A DNA stretch of 64,000 nt from Catenaria anguillulae PL171 (Eukaryota > Blastocladiomycota > Blastocladiomycetes > Blastocladiales > Catenariaceae): positions 29,035 through 93,034 of the forward strand of contig MCFL01000091.1 of NCBI GenBank assembly GCA_002102555.1, written 5' to 3'. Below, piece by piece: positions 38,208-48,236 of the stretch (position 1 is the first letter of the stretch; each line of letters starts with the position of its first letter). The notes beneath the pieces were generated by a model. The model did no database searches. It saw only the letters and a program-made list of their open reading frames with translations, and had not been told where the DNA came from. The translations under genes were made by a program, and so were the position numbers.

Positions 38208-39251
38208 ATGGTCCGCTCGTCGACTGTCAGTTGACCTCAGGCTGACCCGACCACAGTGACTCACACCCAGAATTGCAACTAACCAACCAACAGGCCAAGG
38301 GAGTCTCTGCCGACGACAAGCGTAAGCGCATGCTTGAAATCTTTCACGAAACTGTACATGCTCTCCCCCCTTGATTCCTCCCTTGCCCAGACACCAACCG
38401 ACCTCCATCCCGCCATATTCGCTTCGCTCTCGTTTTTGCAGAAGGACGTCTACACCCTCAAGGACCTCGAAAAGATTGCACCAAAGACAAAGGGAATCAG
38501 TACGTTCGATGGATTGCTCTACCCGTCGTCGTCGTCGTCGTCGTTGTTGTCGTCTTGAGAATCGGGCCTGACTCTCGCACACGAAACCAATAACAACAAC
38601 TACAACCAAAGCTTCCCAGTCTGTCAAGGAAGTCCTACAACAACTCGTCGACGATGGTGAAGTCATGTGCGAAAAGATCGGCTCCTCCAACTACTTTTGG
38701 TCCTTTCCCTCGGCCGCCGTGAAAGCTGTACATGTGTTATTTCTCGATCAGCCATCACGTGATGTCCCCTTCTCCCAGTCAGTGGGTTTGCTCACCTACC
38801 GACGTGATCTATTCACATCCTATGATAGAAACGCCTGCAACTCGACTCCCTGACATGCCAATCTGCCGACCTGACCCAAGACCTGACCCAGCTGCAATCC
38901 TCGCTTGCCCGCGCCACCGCTTCACGCGAACCCACACCCGACCGGCTTGCCCTGTTGGCCGAAATCGAGCACTTGCAAGCAGACATTGCGGCCATGCAAG
39001 TGGAGCTCGAGTCGTACCGGGACTGCGACCCGGAAGTACATCAGCAAACACTTGCACAAGTGGACGTGTGCAAGCAAGGCGTGAATCGGTGGACGGAAAA
39101 CATGTTTGCGTTGCAAGGGTGGGTCAGGGACAAGTTTGGCAGTGAGAATGCGGATGGCTTGTTCAAGGGGTTTGGCGTGCCAGAGGATTTGGATACTGTC
39201 GCGATCTTGGTATCGGAGTTGTGCTGGTTAGGGACTGAGATCTCGTACTGA
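38208..39251 (+). CDS. MND1: Meiotic recombination protein Mnd1, 3' end altered by LTR insertion
   Basis: Exons 38208-38225, 38294-38353, 38442-38499, 38612-38727, 38829-39251 give 224 aa. Mnd1 pairs with Hop2 and stimulates Dmc1/Rad51 strand exchange in meiosis. The winged-helix N-terminus is clear: [66 protein letters not shown] coiled coil follows with [10 protein letters not shown] and the C-terminal [18 protein letters not shown] and FGVPEDLD. The retrotransposon LTR begins at 39197, within the codon after Asp-Thr. The last 16 residues ([16 protein letters not shown]) are encoded by the LTR. The original end, Val then TGA, lies beyond the element at 48241-48247. The protein core is intact, so function may persist. 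Confidence 0.93.
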
Positions 39252-39866
39252 CAACAAAGTAAATCATGTAGATTACCATGTCAGTAAAGATACGAATAGT
39301 CCGGCCGTTTATTACAGATCCAACAATAAAAGAACGTGAAGCGACAGAACTTGTCCAAAGATAACAAGGTCGGAAAGTAACAAACGATGAGAAAACGTGT
39401 AGAGAGATTGGGACAAGCCGAAAAAAGGAGACTCCACTGAAGATGAGATAAACTGACAGACCATTAAGAAACGTTGGAACGATAAACACTGGAATGGGAA
39501 TGAAACGCGCCAGTGAATCGGGACAGAATGTGACAGGAGGGACTGAGTCGGAACGGGGTATAAGAGAAACGATACACACGGCCAAAACGGGAATGGAAAG
39601 AGTAACACGAACCTGACAACAAAGTAAATCATGTAGATTACCATGTCAGTAAAGATACGAATAGTCCGGCAGAGCGCACAAAAAATGGGGGGCGACGAGG
39701 TTTTGATTGTTCCCCACAAAACGCGATGTTAGTATACATGTGCTTGCTGCCTGGACCATCGCAAGATCGATCCATTGAGATCCCGTTTCGCCAACACAGA
39801 CTGTACAGATCGACGGCCCGTTTACTTACACATGACGGGCATGTTTCGACCCATTGGGTCGTGACA
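39197..39866 (-). repeat. LTR, 3' LTR in element orientation
   Basis: 670 bp, TG...CA ends. Contains a 58-bp internal direct repeat (39248-39305 and 39613-39670). Its plus-strand start supplies the new stop codon of MND1. Confidence 0.93.
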
Positions 39867-39879
39867 CCATTCCCCCCTC
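39867..39879 (-). other. Polypurine tract
   Basis: On the minus strand the 13 bases before the downstream LTR read GAGGGGGGAATGG. This is the expected second-strand primer position of an LTR retroelement. Confidence 0.75.
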
Positions 39880-39893
39880 GGGTATCTGGAAAT

Positions 39894-42800
39894 CTAGGTC
39901 AAGAACGAAGGAAGCGGTTGTTCACCATCATGACCAATCACAGAATCGAATGCACGCCATTGATGTGCCCGCTTGCGCATTTGGGTAACGTTGGCGCGCG
40001 GGTTGTAACGCCGCTTGACAATGGTCTTGCGTAGCATGGACGTCATTGCTTGAAAAGCCATCCGTCTTGCGTGTTGACTTTGTGCATAGTACGGACGCAG
40101 TTGACGTCGGTGAAAGGTGCCTGCATAATCCCCAGTTGCAATGTCGCCCAAACGAAAGACGGGCAACGATCCACCACGCTGTGAAATGACTTGTTTGAGA
40201 ACAACGTAGGGACCAATGAATGGGGCCGCGAGCTTGCCGGATGTTGCAAATTTGGGATCACGGCGAAGGACCATGTCACCAGCATGCAATTGCTTTGAAG
40301 TCACAACTTGGGAACGTTCACGTTGAGCGCGCCGAACGCGAGACACGGCCTCAACTGCATCAAGACGGTCGTCGGCGAACCTCGACAATGCTTCCTGATG
40401 ACTGAGGGCTTGCACTACGGGCAGATTTTCTTGCGCTTGCAACCGGGCCTCGCGACCGTAAACCAGGTAGAATGGGGACCGGCCTGTTGCAGCTCTTGGT
40501 GTGACCCGATCCGCCCATAAAGCCCTATCAAGCAGCAACCTCCAAGATGCATGATACACGGCAGACATTTTGGCAAGCGAACGAAGCAAAATGGAATGTC
40601 CACGCTCGACTATCCCGTTGCCTTGTGGGTTGTATGCGGAAATCCGAACCAACTGGCTTCCTCGTAACTTTACAAAGGCTTCTGTTTCTTCACTCCCACA
40701 TTGGTTATCAACAACGATACGTTCTGGAATGCCATGACGAGAGAAAACGTATCGCTCGAGGAATGGAGGAATATGAACTGCTTCTGTCGACGGGACCTCG
40801 GCAGCTTCTACCCAACCAGAAAAATGACAACGGGCGGCCAGCACATAGCCGTCATCAATCTTGAGATGATCGAGACCAATTTCTTGCATGGGAAACGATG
40901 GTACAACTCGACTGCCGAACGCGACCTGGTCCTGGGCCCGACAATGTCGTTGGCAAGCATCGCAAAGCTTGATGAAATGTTCAACTTGACGCCGCTGGCC
41001 TTGCCAATACCATCGAGTTCGAATGGCAGCATACGTGGCGGAAAATCCCCGGTGGCCAAGCTCATCATGAACCGCGCGGATGGTCTTGAGTTGAGCTTCA
41101 GGGCAATCAATGACAAATCTTGGCAGGCGATCTGCATCATACCTGTACAATTGGCCTTCAATCACAACATACCCCTCGGCGTCTTGCAACAGCTCTTCTG
41201 GGAAAACCGACCCAGGATTCTGAAGCACACGGAGAATCAGGGAATGATGGTCGTTGAGTGATTGGGCCGAATGATGCAGCTCGGCATTGCCCACCAAAAA
41301 GCCACCCAGGTCAACAGCGAGGCAAAGTCGGTCAATGTTGACATCCACAAACTGGTCGAGCTCAGCTTCGGAATACGCTACCATGTTCTCGTAGCCAGAC
41401 GCAATGGTTTCCATCCTTGACAGTGCATCGGCAACTGGATTCTTGACGCGAGGAAGATGCTCGGCTTTTTCCACAAACCCACGAATCACCGTCACCCAAC
41501 GGAGCAACGTTGCATCGGGAGCATCACTGGGGTTATTGACCATCCCACATGCAGCAGACGAGTCAGAGTAAATAGTCAGTCTGCGATTGAACACAATGTG
41601 GTGAAGCTTCTTGATCGCAACGACCATGGCCAACAGCTCTCGTTTTGCTGCATGATACCCGCGTTGGGCCGTGTTCATAACAACCGACTCGAAACGAACT
41701 GGAAGCAACTTGCCTTGTTCTTCAATCATGAGTGCTGCACCACAACCAACGTCCGATGCGTCCGTAAACAACTTGAGCGGCGCTTCTGGGTGCTGGTCAG
41801 GGCAACGGAGTGGTTTGATCTTGGCAATTTGGTCCTTGAGAGCCGAGAATGCTTGCTCAGCTTGCAAAGTCCAGTTGATCGGGCTGGTGGGTTTGATGCC
41901 TGATGGCAAACCTCGGATAGGTTGCAGGAGGGGGTCAAGGAAAGTACTGAGTTGAGGTATGTACATGCGTACTTGAGAAACCAGAGCAATGAAACCACGT
42001 AACTCACGCAAATGCGTGGGGCGTCCCCAAGCGAGAATCTTGTCGACGAGCTTGTCGGCCGGCCGACGCCCAAACAAACTGACAATCGTTCCCAGGACAG
42101 TTGCAGTTGGGAATGCAATGTACATCTTGTCGACAGCGATAGTCAAACCGGCATCGGCAATGAGACCCAAGACTTTGCCGAGAGAATCCAAATGTTGCCG
42201 CACAAACACACGCAAACCATCCACACCAATTGTTGTGTCGCGTTCGCGACTCGGGCCACACACGACCACATCGTCCAGGTAAGACTCGGCGCAAACACCA
42301 CGCACAGGAGCCAGAATACGAGCCATGATACGATCATAGACCGCCACACTGTTAGTCCAACCTTGCGGTAATCGTGTCATCCGCAAAAGTCCCAAAGGGG
42401 TCCACAGAGCAGTCAAATCACGAGTCTTGACGTCAAGTGGGACTTGGTCGTACCCAGATTTCATGTCCAAAGTAGAGTACAATGGGAATCCAGCGACACG
42501 CTCCACAAGACTCTCCATAATTGGCGGGACGTTGGCATCGCGCAAAGTAACGGCATTGAGTGGACGCACATCTTGGATGAACCTGAATCCGCCATTGGAC
42601 TTTTTAACAAGAAACCAACGAGATGAGTAAGGACCATGTGAGTATTCAAGGACACCTTGCTCGATTCGCTTGCGCAGAATGGCGATTGCTGCTTCATACT
42701 CGGCTCGACCAAGTCGCCCGATGCGCTGCTGCCAGGGCTCATGTGGTGCTGTTCTGATATGTACAGGTAGCTCAACCGATGGCTTGAGTAGGCCAAGATG

Positions 42801-43892
42801 AGAGTCATCGAACGCGAGGGCTGCATCGTGCTGACGTAGCAAAGCAAGGAATGCATCACGCTCATGTTGGTTGAGTCCAGGGCCGAGGTGAATGCGAGAC
42901 TCGTTGTCGGAAGTAAGCCGTGGAGGGGGAGGAGGGTTGCAAGGCATGCGAGGTCGATAGTTGTGGTGGTGGTGGCCAACAGGTGCTGAACCATCATCGC
43001 TGGCCTTGTTGACGGGTCGCACTTTGACTGATACTCGCTTTGAGGCAGTGCAGCAGTCGTAGTTGCCATGCGAAATCGAATTGTGGAACTCGGCGGACAA
43101 CTTGCTGAAATCATAGGAAAAATCACACTGAAGGGAAGGTGGATCGGGATCAGGGCCTGATGTCTCAACAACCGGACATACCAACTCGGGCTCACTATTC
43201 CCAGGTGAGGTAAGCCCTTCTTCCCCCTCTCCAAACACAGCATCACGACCCTCTCCATCGACAATGTTGATGCAGTAAATGGCAATCGCATCAGGGTCGT
43301 TGAGCAAAGACAAGATAAACGGGTCGGCCACTTCAATAGGTAAAGTAGCCGCAATACGGCGCCAATTGCGTTCAGCGATCCACCGCCGAATCATGCGACG
43401 GCGTAACCGCCGACGTTGGCTTGACGACATAGTAGGATTGACGTTCCACGGAAGCACAGGTGGATACGGAGAAGTTTTCGGGATTGGGCTGATTGGGTGA
43501 CATGAAATGGAACGGCGTTGGTGAGAGTCAGCCGCAGATGAGCGTGAACATGGTGCCGAACGGGCTCGTTTTTCGAAATGACCTCCATCGTGGAAATTGG
43601 ATCGCGCTGAAGGGCGAAAGAAGGAAGCTGGAGTTGAACGAGAACGGAAACGTCGACGCCTGCAGTGTTTCTTTTTGCGGCGCCGAGAACGTCGGCGTTG
43701 AGACTGCCGTGGCCTACGACGATAAACAGGACGTCGGGGGCTCGGAGAAGTATGAATGTCAGAACTTGCGTGATCGTGAAGTGGTGGTACACATGAGCGT
43801 GGTTGGTGGGCCGCCTCAGGAGCGGCCCTTAGGCAAAACCCTCCCCTATGGACATGAGATAGTCCAATGAGAGGTCCGTCTCGTCCGCACAC
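39894..43892 (-). CDS. Retrotransposon pol: RT, RNase H, integrase
   Basis: The frame is open for 1332 codons and overlaps the protease frame by 64 nt, so it is probably entered by -1 frameshifting at 43835-43841. An Arg/Ser-rich leader comes first. The RT carries SRWFLVKKSNGGFRFIQDVR, TLDMKSGYDQVPLD, LPQGWTNS and the catalytic SYLDDVVV. RNase H follows with LKLFTDASDVGCGAALM, YHAAKRELLAMV and IYSDSSA. The integrase has an HHCC finger (HDELGHRGF ... CDACQRH), Asp in EIGLDHLKI and VVDNQCGSE, and Glu in YNPQGNGIVERGH. No chromodomain is obvious in the basic C-terminus. The RT-RH-IN order indicates Ty3/Gypsy. No internal stop or shift is present. Confidence 0.93.
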   Translation of the reverse strand: MCGRDGPLIGLSHVHRGGFCLRAAPEAAHQPRSCVPPLHDHASSDIHTSPSPRRPVYRRRPRQSQRRRSRRRKKKHCRRRRFRSRSTPASFFRPSARSNFHDGGHFEKRARSAPCSRSSAADSHQRRSISCHPISPIPKTSPYPPVLPWNVNPTMSSSQRRRLRRRMIRRWIAERNWRRIAATLPIEVADPFILSLLNDPDAIAIYCINIVDGEGRDAVFGEGEEGLTSPGNSEPELVCPVVETSGPDPDPPSLQCDFSYDFSKLSAEFHNSISHGNYDCCTASKRVSVKVRPVNKASDDGSAPVGHHHHNYRPRMPCNPPPPPRLTSDNESRIHLGPGLNQHERDAFLALLRQHDAALAFDDSHLGLLKPSVELPVHIRTAPHEPWQQRIGRLGRAEYEAAIAILRKRIEQGVLEYSHGPYSSRWFLVKKSNGGFRFIQDVRPLNAVTLRDANVPPIMESLVERVAGFPLYSTLDMKSGYDQVPLDVKTRDLTALWTPLGLLRMTRLPQGWTNSVAVYDRIMARILAPVRGVCAESYLDDVVVCGPSRERDTTIGVDGLRVFVRQHLDSLGKVLGLIADAGLTIAVDKMYIAFPTATVLGTIVSLFGRRPADKLVDKILAWGRPTHLRELRGFIALVSQVRMYIPQLSTFLDPLLQPIRGLPSGIKPTSPINWTLQAEQAFSALKDQIAKIKPLRCPDQHPEAPLKLFTDASDVGCGAALMIEEQGKLLPVRFESVVMNTAQRGYHAAKRELLAMVVAIKKLHHIVFNRRLTIYSDSSAACGMVNNPSDAPDATLLRWVTVIRGFVEKAEHLPRVKNPVADALSRMETIASGYENMVAYSEAELDQFVDVNIDRLCLAVDLGGFLVGNAELHHSAQSLNDHHSLILRVLQNPGSVFPEELLQDAEGYVVIEGQLYRYDADRLPRFVIDCPEAQLKTIRAVHDELGHRGFSATYAAIRTRWYWQGQRRQVEHFIKLCDACQRHCRAQDQVAFGSRVVPSFPMQEIGLDHLKIDDGYVLAARCHFSGWVEAAEVPSTEAVHIPPFLERYVFSRHGIPERIVVDNQCGSEETEAFVKLRGSQLVRISAYNPQGNGIVERGHSILLRSLAKMSAVYHASWRLLLDRALWADRVTPRAATGRSPFYLVYGREARLQAQENLPVVQALSHQEALSRFADDRLDAVEAVSRVRRAQRERSQVVTSKQLHAGDMVLRRDPKFATSGKLAAPFIGPYVVLKQVISQRGGSLPVFRLGDIATGDYAGTFHRRQLRPYYAQSQHARRMAFQAMTSMLRKTIVKRRYNPRANVTQMRKRAHQWRAFDSVIGHDGEQPLPSFLT
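43808..43841 (-). promoter_or_regulatory. Candidate -1 ribosomal frameshift signal, pro-pol
   Basis: The minus strand reads GGGTTTT at 43841-43835, with GGT and TTT as codons of the protease frame (X XXY YYZ). After a 6-nt spacer that includes the protease TAA, the bases GGGCCGC and GCGGCCC (43828-43822 and 43814-43808) form a perfect 7-bp stem with a 7-nt loop. The -1 frame reads GFCLRAAPE and is the pol frame. This is a textbook simple frameshift cassette. Confidence 0.8.
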
Positions 43893-45166
43893 AAATCCTC
43901 GCCCAGGACAGCCGTGACCAAAGCTTCATGTGCGCCAATCCCGACGAATTGCGACTGGTCGGCATACAACTGCTCAGACACAGGTGAACGGAGCAAGATA
44001 CCCGCCTTGGTCGGAATCAATTGGAGTTGATACTCGACGATGCCATTCAAACCAAAGATCATTGGGCGGGACAAACCCTGCATAACAAACAAAGTGACCC
44101 ATTTCAAGACACCGAGTACCTCCATCTTGTCAATAACGACACCAGTCAATCGCGCAACTGCCCCATTGGCGACTTTCACCGTCCGCAACCCACCCGGCAG
44201 AGGCCTTATCTGCAAACGACCGTTAATGGCTTGCTGCTCGTCAATAAGGCAAACTTGGGCACCAGTGTCCACGAGCGCGTTAATCTCACAAGTCCCAATC
44301 TTGCACTTGACTTGCAAACAACTGGTTGACATGCGCATCTGCGTTTGCGCCGTGGTCGAGTCCAGAGTGGTCGTCAAGGCGTGGTAAGAACCGTGGTCGC
44401 GGTGAGCTGAAGAGACTGATTCCGCTTCGTTGGAGGTGTCCAAAGTAGTCAGTAAAGCATTGACCAAGATTGCACACGATGGCACCAGAGCAGCAAACGC
44501 AAGACACAAATCGGCGTCGTTCTCGAGTGCTCTTATCATTGCAATTGCTCGTTGACGAAGCTGCTCTGTTTCCCACTGCTTTTGCTTTCCCGACAACTCC
44601 AAGGCAACCGCTTGCATCTCGTGCGAGGGTGGAGCAGCAGACTGGAGCATTTGCCGCAGCGTCTGCGACGACGGCTGCACGTTAGGTTGGGGAACAGGCA
44701 TGGGTCGTCGTTGATGCATTGGACGTAATGGAGGTGGGACCTGTGGGCCTGAGTTAGGCGCTTGCGGCGGACGACTCGGTCCTTCCAAGAGCATGCGATG
44801 GGCGGCACCGCGCATGAGAGACAGCAATTCAATCATTTTGACGTTGTCCTCAGTTCGAACAGGGGCATTCAAAATCTTTTTCAGTATTCCTGTGGTCACA
44901 GCCCGGTGAAGGTCATCTCGTGCCAAACGCACCGTGCGCCGTCGATCGCGAGCAGAGCTATCTTCAAACTCGAGACGGGACCGCTTGAGAGGACGACGGT
45001 CGACAGCCGCGACTTCGAAAAGGTCATCGAGAGTATCTGCCACCCACTGAAGATTCGCATCAGGGGACTCGTTTGCAATGGACATACCCTGAGAGAGTTC
45101 AATCAACTTTTGAAGGCCGTCTCGGCCATGCTGCGCAAATCTGAGTTGACTGTATCGACTCCACAC
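43829..45166 (-). CDS. Retrotransposon protease region
   Basis: The frame is open for 445 codons. The aspartic protease active site is CEINALVDTGAQVCLIDEQQ (Asp-Thr-Gly), with a second element LPGGLRTVKVANG and MIFGLNGI later, the usual flap and ILG/A positions. The N-terminal half is Pro/Gln-rich. The frame opens just after the gag-side frames end, with no ATG at its start, so it is probably translated as a fusion. Its stop (TAA 43829-43831) lies in the frameshift cassette. Confidence 0.85.
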   Translation of the reverse strand: MWSRYSQLRFAQHGRDGLQKLIELSQGMSIANESPDANLQWVADTLDDLFEVAAVDRRPLKRSRLEFEDSSARDRRRTVRLARDDLHRAVTTGILKKILNAPVRTEDNVKMIELLSLMRGAAHRMLLEGPSRPPQAPNSGPQVPPPLRPMHQRRPMPVPQPNVQPSSQTLRQMLQSAAPPSHEMQAVALELSGKQKQWETEQLRQRAIAMIRALENDADLCLAFAALVPSCAILVNALLTTLDTSNEAESVSSAHRDHGSYHALTTTLDSTTAQTQMRMSTSCLQVKCKIGTCEINALVDTGAQVCLIDEQQAINGRLQIRPLPGGLRTVKVANGAVARLTGVVIDKMEVLGVLKWVTLFVMQGLSRPMIFGLNGIVEYQLQLIPTKAGILLRSPVSEQLYADQSQFVGIGAHEALVTAVLGEDLCADETDLSLDYLMSIGEGFA

Positions 45167-45191
45167 ACGTCAAAGCAATTGTCGACAAGGT

Positions 45192-46682
45192 TCATGTTGA
45201 TGACAAACGTCGTGTCGTCCACTTGCTCTGTCCAAAGCGCATCCACCGAAGACACCTCCTTCGTAGTTGATGAGCCATGGGTTTGGCCAACTTGCGAGCT
45301 TCCACTTGTTGACGCAATGGTCGCCCGTCGAGCACTAGAGGGCATGGTGCACCACCTGATTGCGATAATGACGTCCCAAAACCCAGGCGAGACTTCTTGT
45401 CTTGGTCGGTGATCCAAGTGACCAGTTTGTCTCGCTTGTCGGCCTGCAAGGCTTGACATTGCCTGATTCGGTGGTCGGGAGCTCCACAGTACCAACAGCC
45501 TCGCACAGAGTCCATGGTTGCCGACAAGCACTCAAAGAACGGCTCATGCTGAGGTTCACATGTTGCACTTGCTACCGAAACCGTTGGGTGGAGGGGAGCT
45601 GACTGAAAAGACAAGGGATGTGAAGGAATAGGTGCTGCCTTTGCGAAGAACACATGATGGCGTTGCTGAAGGAGCAATTTGATGGCTCCACCGACGTAGG
45701 CAAGTGGAAGGTCGGTGCTGCGCCCGAGCGGCACGCCAGGAATAGTCATGGCCTGTTGAACAATTTGGGCTTGTACCAAAGGCGGAAATTTGGAAAGAAT
45801 GACTTGTCCGAGCTTGATAGAATGACGTTTCGAGCTGTCAGCAGTATCCCAGTGCTCGTCCAAATCCTCAGTTGCTAGGCGCAGCATTTCGTTGACATGG
45901 TCGGCAAAGTTCTTGCCGATGAACTCGACTTCGGTCGTGACAGTTGGGAGAGAACAACGCTCAATGCGCCCAGCCAATAATGATGGTTGGTAGTACGTGA
46001 CGTCCAAATAACGTGCCAAGTTGTAGACGGTGTGTGAGTCGACCCGATTTCCAAGAATCTCCGAAAACGGACCCACCACCTTCATGAGCACCTTGCCCAA
46101 ACTAAACGCGTCTGTCGGCGCGCGCGAATCTTTTGCAACCTTCAAGCACCGGAGAAGGAACCTACGAGGATCCTCTTTGTCATACTCGAATGGTCGATGA
46201 TGCCCGAGCGACTCCAGACGAAACTTGGGATCGGGCGGACCAGACAAATCGACATAGGTAATGGCATTGTTGATCCAGTTGTCGTCCAGTACTCGTTGGT
46301 CAAGGCGATTGTACCACTTGCATGCAGCATTTTTGACCGTTCCTTTGGTGTACCGCTGGTCAACGTCTTCAAATCCTGGCAAATCGGTTAGTCCAGGAGG
46401 AAGAGTTGCGATGGCCTCAAGGACGTCGAGTGAAGATTGTGCAGCCTCCATTGAGCGAACGGTGGTTACCGAACGACCAGATACTGCTGAATGGGGGGTT
46501 GGCTGCTGATTGGACCCGACTTGTTGTGCTTGAGGAGTGGTATCCAACTTCAAAGCAGAGGAATCCGACTTGGGTGCAAGAGGATCATGCTGTTGCGGCA
46601 AGGGTGGAGCATTGGCCCGAGCGGATGCAGGAACCCAACCACGGCGTTCTAGACGCTCAACAGCGGTGTTGTTGGTTGCCAC
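45192..46682 (-). CDS. Retrotransposon gag with zinc knuckle
   Basis: The frame is open for 496 codons and starts at a GTG, so it is probably entered from an upstream frame. Capsid-like helical sequence occupies residues 90-330 (for example RFLLRCLKVAKDSRAPTDAF). The CCHC knuckle CWYCGAPDHRIRQC matches Cys-x2-Cys-x4-His-x4-Cys. Just after it comes GGGTTTT at 45384-45378, in frame. Beyond this point the gag frame becomes Arg-rich, while the -1 frame stays protein-like up to 45103. Confidence 0.85.
   Translation of the reverse strand: MATNNTAVERLERRGWVPASARANAPPLPQQHDPLAPKSDSSALKLDTTPQAQQVGSNQQPTPHSAVSGRSVTTVRSMEAAQSSLDVLEAIATLPPGLTDLPGFEDVDQRYTKGTVKNAACKWYNRLDQRVLDDNWINNAITYVDLSGPPDPKFRLESLGHHRPFEYDKEDPRRFLLRCLKVAKDSRAPTDAFSLGKVLMKVVGPFSEILGNRVDSHTVYNLARYLDVTYYQPSLLAGRIERCSLPTVTTEVEFIGKNFADHVNEMLRLATEDLDEHWDTADSSKRHSIKLGQVILSKFPPLVQAQIVQQAMTIPGVPLGRSTDLPLAYVGGAIKLLLQQRHHVFFAKAAPIPSHPLSFQSAPLHPTVSVASATCEPQHEPFFECLSATMDSVRGCWYCGAPDHRIRQCQALQADKRDKLVTWITDQDKKSRLGFGTSLSQSGGAPCPLVLDGRPLRQQVEARKLAKPMAHQLRRRCLRWMRFGQSKWTTRRLSST
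45378..45384 (-). promoter_or_regulatory. Candidate -1 slippery heptamer after gag knuckle
   Basis: GGGTTTT with GGT and TTT in the gag frame, identical to the pro-pol site. The -1 frame downstream (to 45103) is open and includes SSVDALWTEQVDDTTFVIN. No strong stem is obvious within 10 nt downstream. Confidence 0.5.
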
Positions 46683-46684
46683 AG

Positions 46685-47199
46685 CTATGCATTGGACTCC
46701 TGCTCGTGCGAAATGTTGTCTTTTGGGGTAGTAACTTGAGGGTTGGTTCCCTTGGTGATGCTACGTAGGAGAGGTAGCGCGCGGAAACGACTGAATTGGG
46801 ACACCATCTTGCGAATCAGGAAACCGTTCTCGGTTGACTCTGAGGCCCAACCGCAAAAACTCTCAAGTACTTCTTCGTTCTTGCGGGCAGCTTCATGTTG
46901 ACCATCGCAAAATTCCAAGCAGTAATCATTCCAGGCCGTGTGGAGCATAGGTCGGTCGGACGATCGCAAGTGAGATGACGTTCCCACTCATCGAAAACGT
47001 CTTGAAGGGCCAACGACCGAACAGGCAAAGGAAAATTTACAGTAGTGCCAACGACAGACGACGATGAAGAGCTGACACTAGAGGGGTTTTCATGAGCAGG
47101 TGACTCGAGCGACAGCGATTGCATTCCGTGTGCAAGGGAGTCGTCAGAGCTGCCAAGCTGAAGATCGTGACGCGGCTGAGTTGAACCAGGACGCGACAT
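46685..47199 (-). CDS. Retrotransposon gag N-terminal frames
   Basis: From ATG 47199 the frame encodes MSRPGSTQPRHDLQLGSS and a Ser-rich segment ending near VFDEWERHL. A second frame then carries coding-like sequence from about 46987 to 46685 (HTAWNDYCLEFCDGQHEAAR, LIRKMVSQFSRFRALPLL). It ends just inside the start of the main gag frame. Each step between frames is equivalent to one missing base. This is probably the gag N-terminus. Confidence 0.55.
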
Positions 47200-47544
47200 G
47201 ATTGTGTTTGAACAAATGACAGTGCGGGGTTGCGAACAAAAGAGTCGATGGCGACAACGAGGTCACAGGTTGCGCACGAAATCGAAACTTTGCTGGAATA
47301 GGACAGCAGAGATCTGCTGCGGACAATATACCAAGATCCGGAACCAAATAATCGGCAGGGGAGCTGTGGCTGTGGCAGAGTAAGTATGTACAAGGTGTGG
47401 TGCCAGTCAAGTCGGCAGTCAGGGACGACGGCGGACGCTGGCGGCGTTGTGAGAGGTTGCCGAGAAGGCGGGTGAGAGATGAGCCGTGAAGGCGAAGTTT
47501 GCTTTGATGAAAGGCTTGGTGAGGGGAGTCAATGGGCGGTTGCT

Positions 47545-47566
47545 GATGCCCGGATTCTCCACCATT
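47545..47566 (-). other. Primer binding site
   Basis: Just inside the upstream LTR, after two A residues, the minus strand reads TGGTGGAGAATCCGGGC, starting with the TGG expected opposite a tRNA CCA end. The primer tRNA is not identified. Confidence 0.65.
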
Positions 47567-48236
47567 TGTCGCGATCTTGGTATCGGAGTTGTGCTGGTTA
47601 GGGACTGAGATCTCGTACTGACAACAAAGTAAATCATGTAGATTACCATGTCAGTAAAGATACGAATAGTCCGGCCGTTTATTACAGATCCAACAATAAA
47701 AGAACGTGAAGCGACAGAACTTGTCCAAAGATAACAAGGTCGGAAAGTAACAAACGATGAGAAAACGTGTAGAGAGATTGGGACAAGCCGAAAAAAGGAG
47801 ACTCCACTGAAGATGAGATAAACTGACAGACCATTAAGAAACGTTGGAACGATAAACACTGGAATGGGAATGAAACGCGCCAGTGAATCGGGACAGAATG
47901 TGACAGGAGGGACTGAGTCGGAACGGGGTATAAGAGAAACGATACACACGGCCAAAACGGGAATGGAAAGAGTAACACGAACCTGACAACAAAGTAAATC
48001 ATGTAGATTACCATGTCAGTAAAGATACGAATAGTCCGGCAGAGCGCACAAAAAATGGGGGGCGACGAGGTTTTGATTGTTCCCCACAAAACGCGATGTT
48101 AGTATACATGTGCTTGCTGCCTGGACCATCGCAAGATCGATCCATTGAGATCCCGTTTCGCCAACACAGACTGTACAGATCGACGGCCCGTTTACTTACA
48201 CATGACGGGCATGTTTCGACCCATTGGGTCGTGACA
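47567..48236 (-). repeat. LTR, 5' LTR in element orientation
   Basis: 670 bp, reading as identical to the other LTR, with the same TG...CA ends and 58-bp internal repeat. It should hold the element's promoter. Confidence 0.93.

Follow-up and report, generated by a model that had tools for sequence, protein, structure and literature searches.

A putative -1 frameshift cassette located after the protease in a Ty3/gypsy-type retrotransposon family of the fungus Catenaria anguillulae

The protease and pol frames of an LTR retrotransposon in Catenaria anguillulae PL171, a blastocladiomycete fungus, meet at a short cassette that is very probably a programmed -1 ribosomal frameshift signal of a Ty3/gypsy-type element. 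Its layout, its phase, the frames on both sides and the conservation of the layout across diverged families are direct observations, from which we infer that ribosomes slip at this point, at some frequency and with an effect on the ratios of the proteins produced. What appears to be unusual about this signal is its position, since it lies after the protease and the elements compared below shift at the end of gag. The element was found in the window, that is, the whole stretch of 64,000 nucleotides that was analysed (assembly GCA_002102555.1, contig MCFL01000091.1, positions 29,035 to 93,034 of the forward strand), which belongs to contig C449 in our scan of the 41.07 Mb host genome (457 contigs). 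An ATP synthase beta exon of 457 residues, also present in the window, matches C. anguillulae PL171 at 100% identity.

The element is 9.04 kb long, lies on the minus strand (39197-48236) and is flanked on the outer side of both LTRs by ATAC, a target-site duplication. Its features, in window coordinates, are the following:

47567-48236, minus strand: 5' LTR, 670 bp, TG...CA, 100% identical to the 3' LTR
45192-46760, minus strand: gag open frame, not continuous with the protease in the window copy
43829-45169, minus strand: aspartic protease open frame, Pfam domain at about 44311-44045, continuous with gag in sister copies
39894-43925, minus strand: pol open frame, with Pfam reverse transcriptase (RT), RNase H and integrase zinc-binding domain
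43829-43925, minus strand: 97-nt overlap of the protease and pol frames, pol being the -1 frame
43835-43841, minus strand: slippery heptamer GGGTTTT, read G_GGT_TTT, in the X_XXY_YYZ phase of the protease frame
43829-43834, minus strand: 6-nt spacer GCCTAA, holding the protease-frame stop (43831-43829)
43808-43828, minus strand: hairpin with a perfect 7-bp stem and a 7-nt loop, GGGCCGC (43828-43822), TCCTGAG (43821-43815), GCGGCCC (43814-43808)
39197-39866, minus strand: 3' LTR, 670 bp

The Pfam matches follow the Ty3/gypsy order of protease, RT, RNase H and integrase, the last recognized through its H2C2 zinc-binding domain, and the integrase catalytic core gave no Pfam match in the window pol at E 0.01. 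A zinc knuckle is found in gag at about 45503-45453 with a Pfam score under the cut-off. By its LTRs, their TG...CA ends, the target-site duplication and the domain order we regard the element as a Ty3/gypsy-type LTR retrotransposon. Each LTR additionally contains a 58-bp duplication, with the two units 100% identical and 365 bp apart (39248-39305 and 39613-39670; 47618-47675 and 47983-48040).

On the minus strand the protease frame ends with GAG GGT TTT GCC TAA, so that a heptamer of the X_XXY_YYZ type precedes the zero-frame stop, and the 6-nt spacer and 7-bp stem agree with the arrangement expected of a -1 signal, about 5-9 nt followed by a stable hairpin or pseudoknot. The original prediction had described precisely these elements, namely GGGTTTT in the correct protease phase, a 6-nt spacer containing the stop, a perfect stem with a 7-nt loop and pol in the -1 frame, and every one of them was found at the coordinates given above. 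GGGTTTT is the only in-phase slippery heptamer within the 97-nt overlap, and G_GGU_UUU is listed as one of the heptamers most prone to slipping on mammalian ribosomes (PMC5009743). Taken alone, the fold of the window cassette is only modestly unusual: over 45 nt it reaches -18.1 kcal/mol (z -2.22), and 7 of 200 shuffled sequences fold as well. In long frames 91 of 30,923 in-phase positions (0.29%) were slippery under a broad definition, which was fixed after the families had been seen and applied to a pool of positions that includes the family loci, and a stem scoring 7 or more and starting at 4-8 nt was found at 83 of 6,000 random positions (1.4%). A chance origin is unlikely given the heptamer, the stem and their position at the end of the frame. 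The strong evidence is the recurrence of the cassette at the same place in diverged families, and it is this comparison of relatives that settles the question of chance.

Eleven loci of the clade were fetched from the Catenaria genome, of which eight retain the heptamer, the spacer and the stem and one, on C290, is damaged; in the other two, on C101 and C24 (L053 and L054), other sequence or decay lies between the protease-like and RT stretches. Four of these loci, including the window copy, are near copies at 99% identity or more (C449, C455, C172, C290). Heptamer, spacer and stem are as in the window in C455, with one different loop base, and in C172 (two of the three other near copies), and the C290 copy (L037) has lost the arrangement through an early protease stop and a damaged stem. 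The prediction had proposed looking at other copies for protease and pol in one frame or for a heptamer and stem that are not conserved: protease and pol share a frame in none of the eight readable Catenaria junctions, and the heptamer-spacer-stem layout is kept in 8 of the 11 loci, with different letters in the diverged families.

These diverged families, four in number, are represented by C334, by C403 together with C201 (99% alike in the protease), by C296 and by C90. With respect to the window element, RT is 71-77% identical and the protease 28-31% identical in C334, C403, C201 and C296, and in all four the gag-protease frame ends with G GAT TTT TGA and pol is in -1. GGATTTT is followed in C334 by a 5-nt spacer and a stem of 12 pairs, two of them G-U, with a loop of 11; in C403 and C201 by a spacer of 6 and a 7-bp stem with a loop of 7; and in C296 by a 10-bp stem that starts at 5 nt and has a loop of 3. 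C90 has an RT fragment 83% identical to that of the window and an unaligned protease, and its decayed protease frame closes with ...GVDF* (G GAT TTT TGA), followed by a 6-nt spacer and a perfect 10-bp stem, GGGCTGCCAA/TTGGCAGCCC, with a loop of 13 and a pol-like -1 frame. Thus, in the four families the spacer, stop included, measures 5-6 nt and the stems differ, ranging from 7 to 12 bp. The fold z is -2.13 for C334 and -0.72 for L039. GGATTTT deviates from the strict XXX rule; natural precedents exist, as G_GAU_UUU is the slip site of pea enation mosaic virus (PMC5009743) and GGAUUUU is mentioned in connection with totiviruses of Xanthophyllomyces dendrorhous, a yeast (PMC6797558). Since the protease and pol frames overlap only briefly in C403/C201 (28 nt) and in C296 (19 nt), the heptamer is the sole slippery site there.

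Furthermore, the stem keeps its pairing while its letters turn over. When the C334 and C90 cassettes were aligned and read by eye, one pair changed from G-C in C334 to U-A in C90, and C90 had C-G at the two G-U pairs of C334. A comparison of the window with C403, also made by eye with the pairs counted from the heptamer, shows G-C replaced by C-G at the third pair and by A-U at the sixth. Counting also a soil relative described below (L071), the signal is conserved in 8 of 11 Catenaria loci and in that relative, with L037 damaged and the stem of a second soil relative (L082) weak.

It could be argued that the element is decayed, that the break between protease and pol arose from an accidental indel and that the cassette is a product of chance, as accidental frame changes do occur between gag and protease in the window copy and other copies carry lesions. 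The -1 relation and the cassette are, against this, common to the near copies, the four diverged families and the soil relative, which makes an accident extremely improbable and bears out the reading of a -1 cassette.

The frames upstream required one correction to the prediction, which had treated the protease as a frame of its own. Gag and protease form a single frame in the three other near copies (977-1145 open codons in the fetched pieces from C455, C172 and C290) and likewise in C334, C403, C201 and C296; by locus, gag and protease are continuous in L035-L037, L038-L040, L042 and L082 and discontinuous in the window copy, the comparison covering loci other than L071, cut upstream, and the decayed C90. 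In the window the two frames differ and do not overlap, and the zone between them differs by two bases in length from that of C455. The window frames hinted at an additional programmed shift at the border of gag and protease, as in the MMTV plan; this candidate was rejected in view of the single frame in the three other near copies and in C334, C403, C201 and C296. Because sister copies and cousins run gag and protease in one frame, we take the break for a lesion of the window copy, which would be a young insertion that is already broken, or for an assembly error, and not for another recoding site. The continuous frame is lost at 45105-45290 (minus strand) although the two LTRs are still 100% identical.

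On this basis, the following course of translation is proposed. The majority of ribosomes would end at the TAA and release Gag-Pro. In a minority, brought to a pause by the GC-rich hairpin that begins 6 nt farther on, the tRNAs on GGU in the P site and UUU in the A site would re-pair to GGG and UUU one base back. The shifted ribosomes would then bypass the stop and continue into Pol (...E-G-F-C-L-R...). The Gag-Pro fusion applies to the family, since the window copy has gag and protease in different frames. Because the shift lies after the protease, protease output would equal that of Gag, and rationing would be confined to RT, RNase H and integrase.

The stimulator in this mechanism would be a simple hairpin. 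The same -1 shift could instead be stimulated by an H-type pseudoknot, in which the loop UGAG would pair with CUCA 10 nt past the stem, and these two motifs do stand beside the stem in the window copy; we regard this as unlikely, given that 235 of 500 shuffles pair as well and that the near copies L035 and L036 break the pairing. When the loop was compared with the 45 nt downstream in seven rows, with 500 shuffles, none stood out, and even the best of them (L039) was matched by 108 of 500 shuffles, so the pseudoknot was rejected as unsupported.

Two other routes from protease to pol do not involve slipping. A short spliced intron could join the two frames, the heptamer and stem being incidental, and our reading was made from DNA alone. 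We consider this very unlikely, as splicing leaves unexplained why heptamer, spacer and stem recur at the frame end in diverged families and the genomic RNA of a retrotransposon must remain unspliced to be copied. Alternatively, pol could have a start codon of its own close to the stop, reached by stop-coupled re-initiation of the kind used by some fungal viruses, and in C296 there is indeed a Met codon three codons into the pol frame. The window copy has no Met in the first 120 pol codons from the heptamer, and the first Met occurs at codon 101 in C334, 27 in C403/C201, 58 in L071 and 84 in L082, with no conserved start near the stop; in addition, re-initiation would turn the in-phase heptamers into a coincidence, and we judge it highly improbable. 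A -1 shift on the heptamer thus remains our preferred reading.

Outside Catenaria, the closest proteins (P0001-P0040) are 30-44% identical and nearly all of them are metagenome predictions. Of these 40, P0002 has a protease motif upstream of RT, and P0001 and P0029 have a zinc knuckle there, so that these three proteins seem to be fused in one frame. Neither feature was present upstream of the match in the other 37, which is weak evidence for a separate pol because gene starts and contig ends can mislead. No relatives were found among viral contigs in two scans (63 and 12 pattern matches).

Two relatives could be read at the DNA level, both in a soil metagenome-assembled genome labelled 'Bacteroidetes' and filed with the prokaryotes (VBAU01, G001). 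This genome seems to be contaminated by eukaryotic DNA, since many of its contigs (L071, L082-L089, of which L083-L089 were read for their frames) bear LTR-retrotransposon genes. In L071 the protease frame ends with TAT TTA AAA GTC TAG, which contains the heptamer TTTAAAA and a 6-nt spacer including the stop, pol is in -1, and the stem is a perfect 11 bp, GGGGTGCTTCT/AGAAGCACCCC, with a fold z of -3.75; this contig is truncated on the gag side, and farther on the pol frame is broken. In L082 gag and protease occupy a single frame and pol is again in -1, with T TTA AAC placed 18 nt before the end of the stop. Its stem is weaker and bulged, failed the gapless stem test and has a fold z of -1.36.

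Five Gag-Pro homologues of L082, of 815-1037 residues, were recovered, and RT is among the precomputed domains of none of the five; this search covered proteins up to about 1,460 residues, and longer fused relatives would fall outside it. Their C-terminal ends read ...DLNSKRGT, ...PLN, ...NLN and ...DLN, and ...HL in P0181. Leu-Asn therefore stands at the C-terminus or within five residues of it in four of the five, those that are 46-77% identical, with varying neighbouring residues, and it is what T_TTA_AAC would encode, an agreement read from the protein sequences. The fifth, P0181, is 100% identical to L082 over its length and ends before the Asn.

The original prediction considered a retrovirus-like -1 cassette noteworthy in a fungal element, because many Ty3/gypsy elements use one fused frame or +1 shifting. 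Fungal Ty3/gypsy elements are, however, no exception with regard to -1 shifting (PMC10085805), and we also observed it in other elements of this genome, so surprise at a fungal -1 cassette is unwarranted. A 2003 survey of LTR elements and their recoding signals, as cited in PMC5009743, had pol in -1 in 28 of 51 animal elements and a less skewed distribution in fungi. Within Catenaria, four Ty3/gypsy-like loci (L043, L045, L046, L047) have pol in -1, as in the window family, and carry GGGAAAA or GGGAAAC in phase ahead of the stop that closes the gag frame; unlike in the window family, their shift is at the end of gag. Inspection by eye showed a protease-like motif farther along the pol frame of L043 and L045, and none was located in L046 and L047. 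These four are the loci with a clear two-frame layout, in which the gag/pol junction was read, among twelve (L043-L054), the rest including single-frame and decayed loci. Both plans, a shift at the end of gag and a shift after the protease, are thus seemingly found in one host.

An RT tree of 65 rows unites the six rows of the Catenaria family with 38 foreign proteins in a single branch (support 100/100), outside which fall the Catenaria rows L019, L021, L022 and L024, whose matching loci are L043, L045, L046 and L047. The tree covered rows matching at least about 145 profile positions and left out nine names (duplicate or partial loci, L073 and L084 of C158, P0028 and P0038); it is rooted at the midpoint, which gives no order of age between the two plans, and has no named reference set.

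Among known systems, the Tf1/sushi group of Ty3/gypsy elements, such as grasshopper of Pyricularia, are LTR elements with pol in -1 like the window family, and differ from it in that the shift is at the Gag-Pol junction, whereas here the protease is in the gag frame and the shift follows it (PMC10085805). For fission-yeast members of the group, Pol is said in the same text to comprise protease, RT and integrase. The nearest likeness in frames is the '0/-1' plan of Rous sarcoma virus, an alpharetrovirus, with gag and pro in one frame and a -1 shift between pro and pol; chicken alpha ERVs are reported to have deviated from this '0/-1' pattern expected from Rous sarcoma virus (PMC1224870). Judged by its frames and cassette, the window family would work like this plan and is not assigned to Alpharetrovirus: alpharetroviruses are a different family, no pseudoknot is supported in the window element, and the likeness is likely a convergence. 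In MMTV, a betaretrovirus, a -1 shift at the pro-pol border is similar, and an additional -1 shift is present at gag-pro, which in the window family is one frame (PMC12789967). In the open-licence literature that was searched we recognized no description of a Ty3/gypsy element with the shift after the protease, which is no proof that there is none.

We consider it fairly probable that the window element belongs to a deep and widespread clade of Ty3/gypsy-like elements in fungi and soil eukaryotes that is marked by a pro/pol shift in place of a gag/pro shift. Such a clade would have arrived independently at the Rous sarcoma virus plan. The letters of its heptamer and stem would turn over freely on a layout that stays fixed, with 5-6 nt, stop included, between the heptamer and a GC-rich hairpin, and a few lineages would have fused the frames. 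Which enzymes are rationed depends on where the shift lies: in the window family each Gag would come with protease, as it does in Rous sarcoma virus, and at least L043 and L045 would ration protease too. In this regard, the two plans in one host, with slip sites GGGTTTT, GGATTTT and GGGAAAC, to which soil adds TTTAAAA and TTTAAAC, on a similar layout, offer a natural test set for studying the influence of slip site and stem on the frameshift rate and the reasons for the placement of the shift in retroelements.

Lastly, two minor observations concern the sequences around the family. Protease-like stretches related to the window family were found at six further loci (L065-L070, on C150, C124, C403 at 66.8k, C304, C453 and C135), with no readable protease-pol junction found in them and with 231 open codons in L065 and 291 in L066; these could be relics or domesticated proteases. 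The start of pol after the shift (43740-43630, minus strand) is very basic, with arginine runs. Lysine and arginine account for 28 of pol residues 6-105 in the window copy, 22 in C334 and 36 in C403/C201, and are lower in L071 (11), L082 (14) and the decayed C296 (6).
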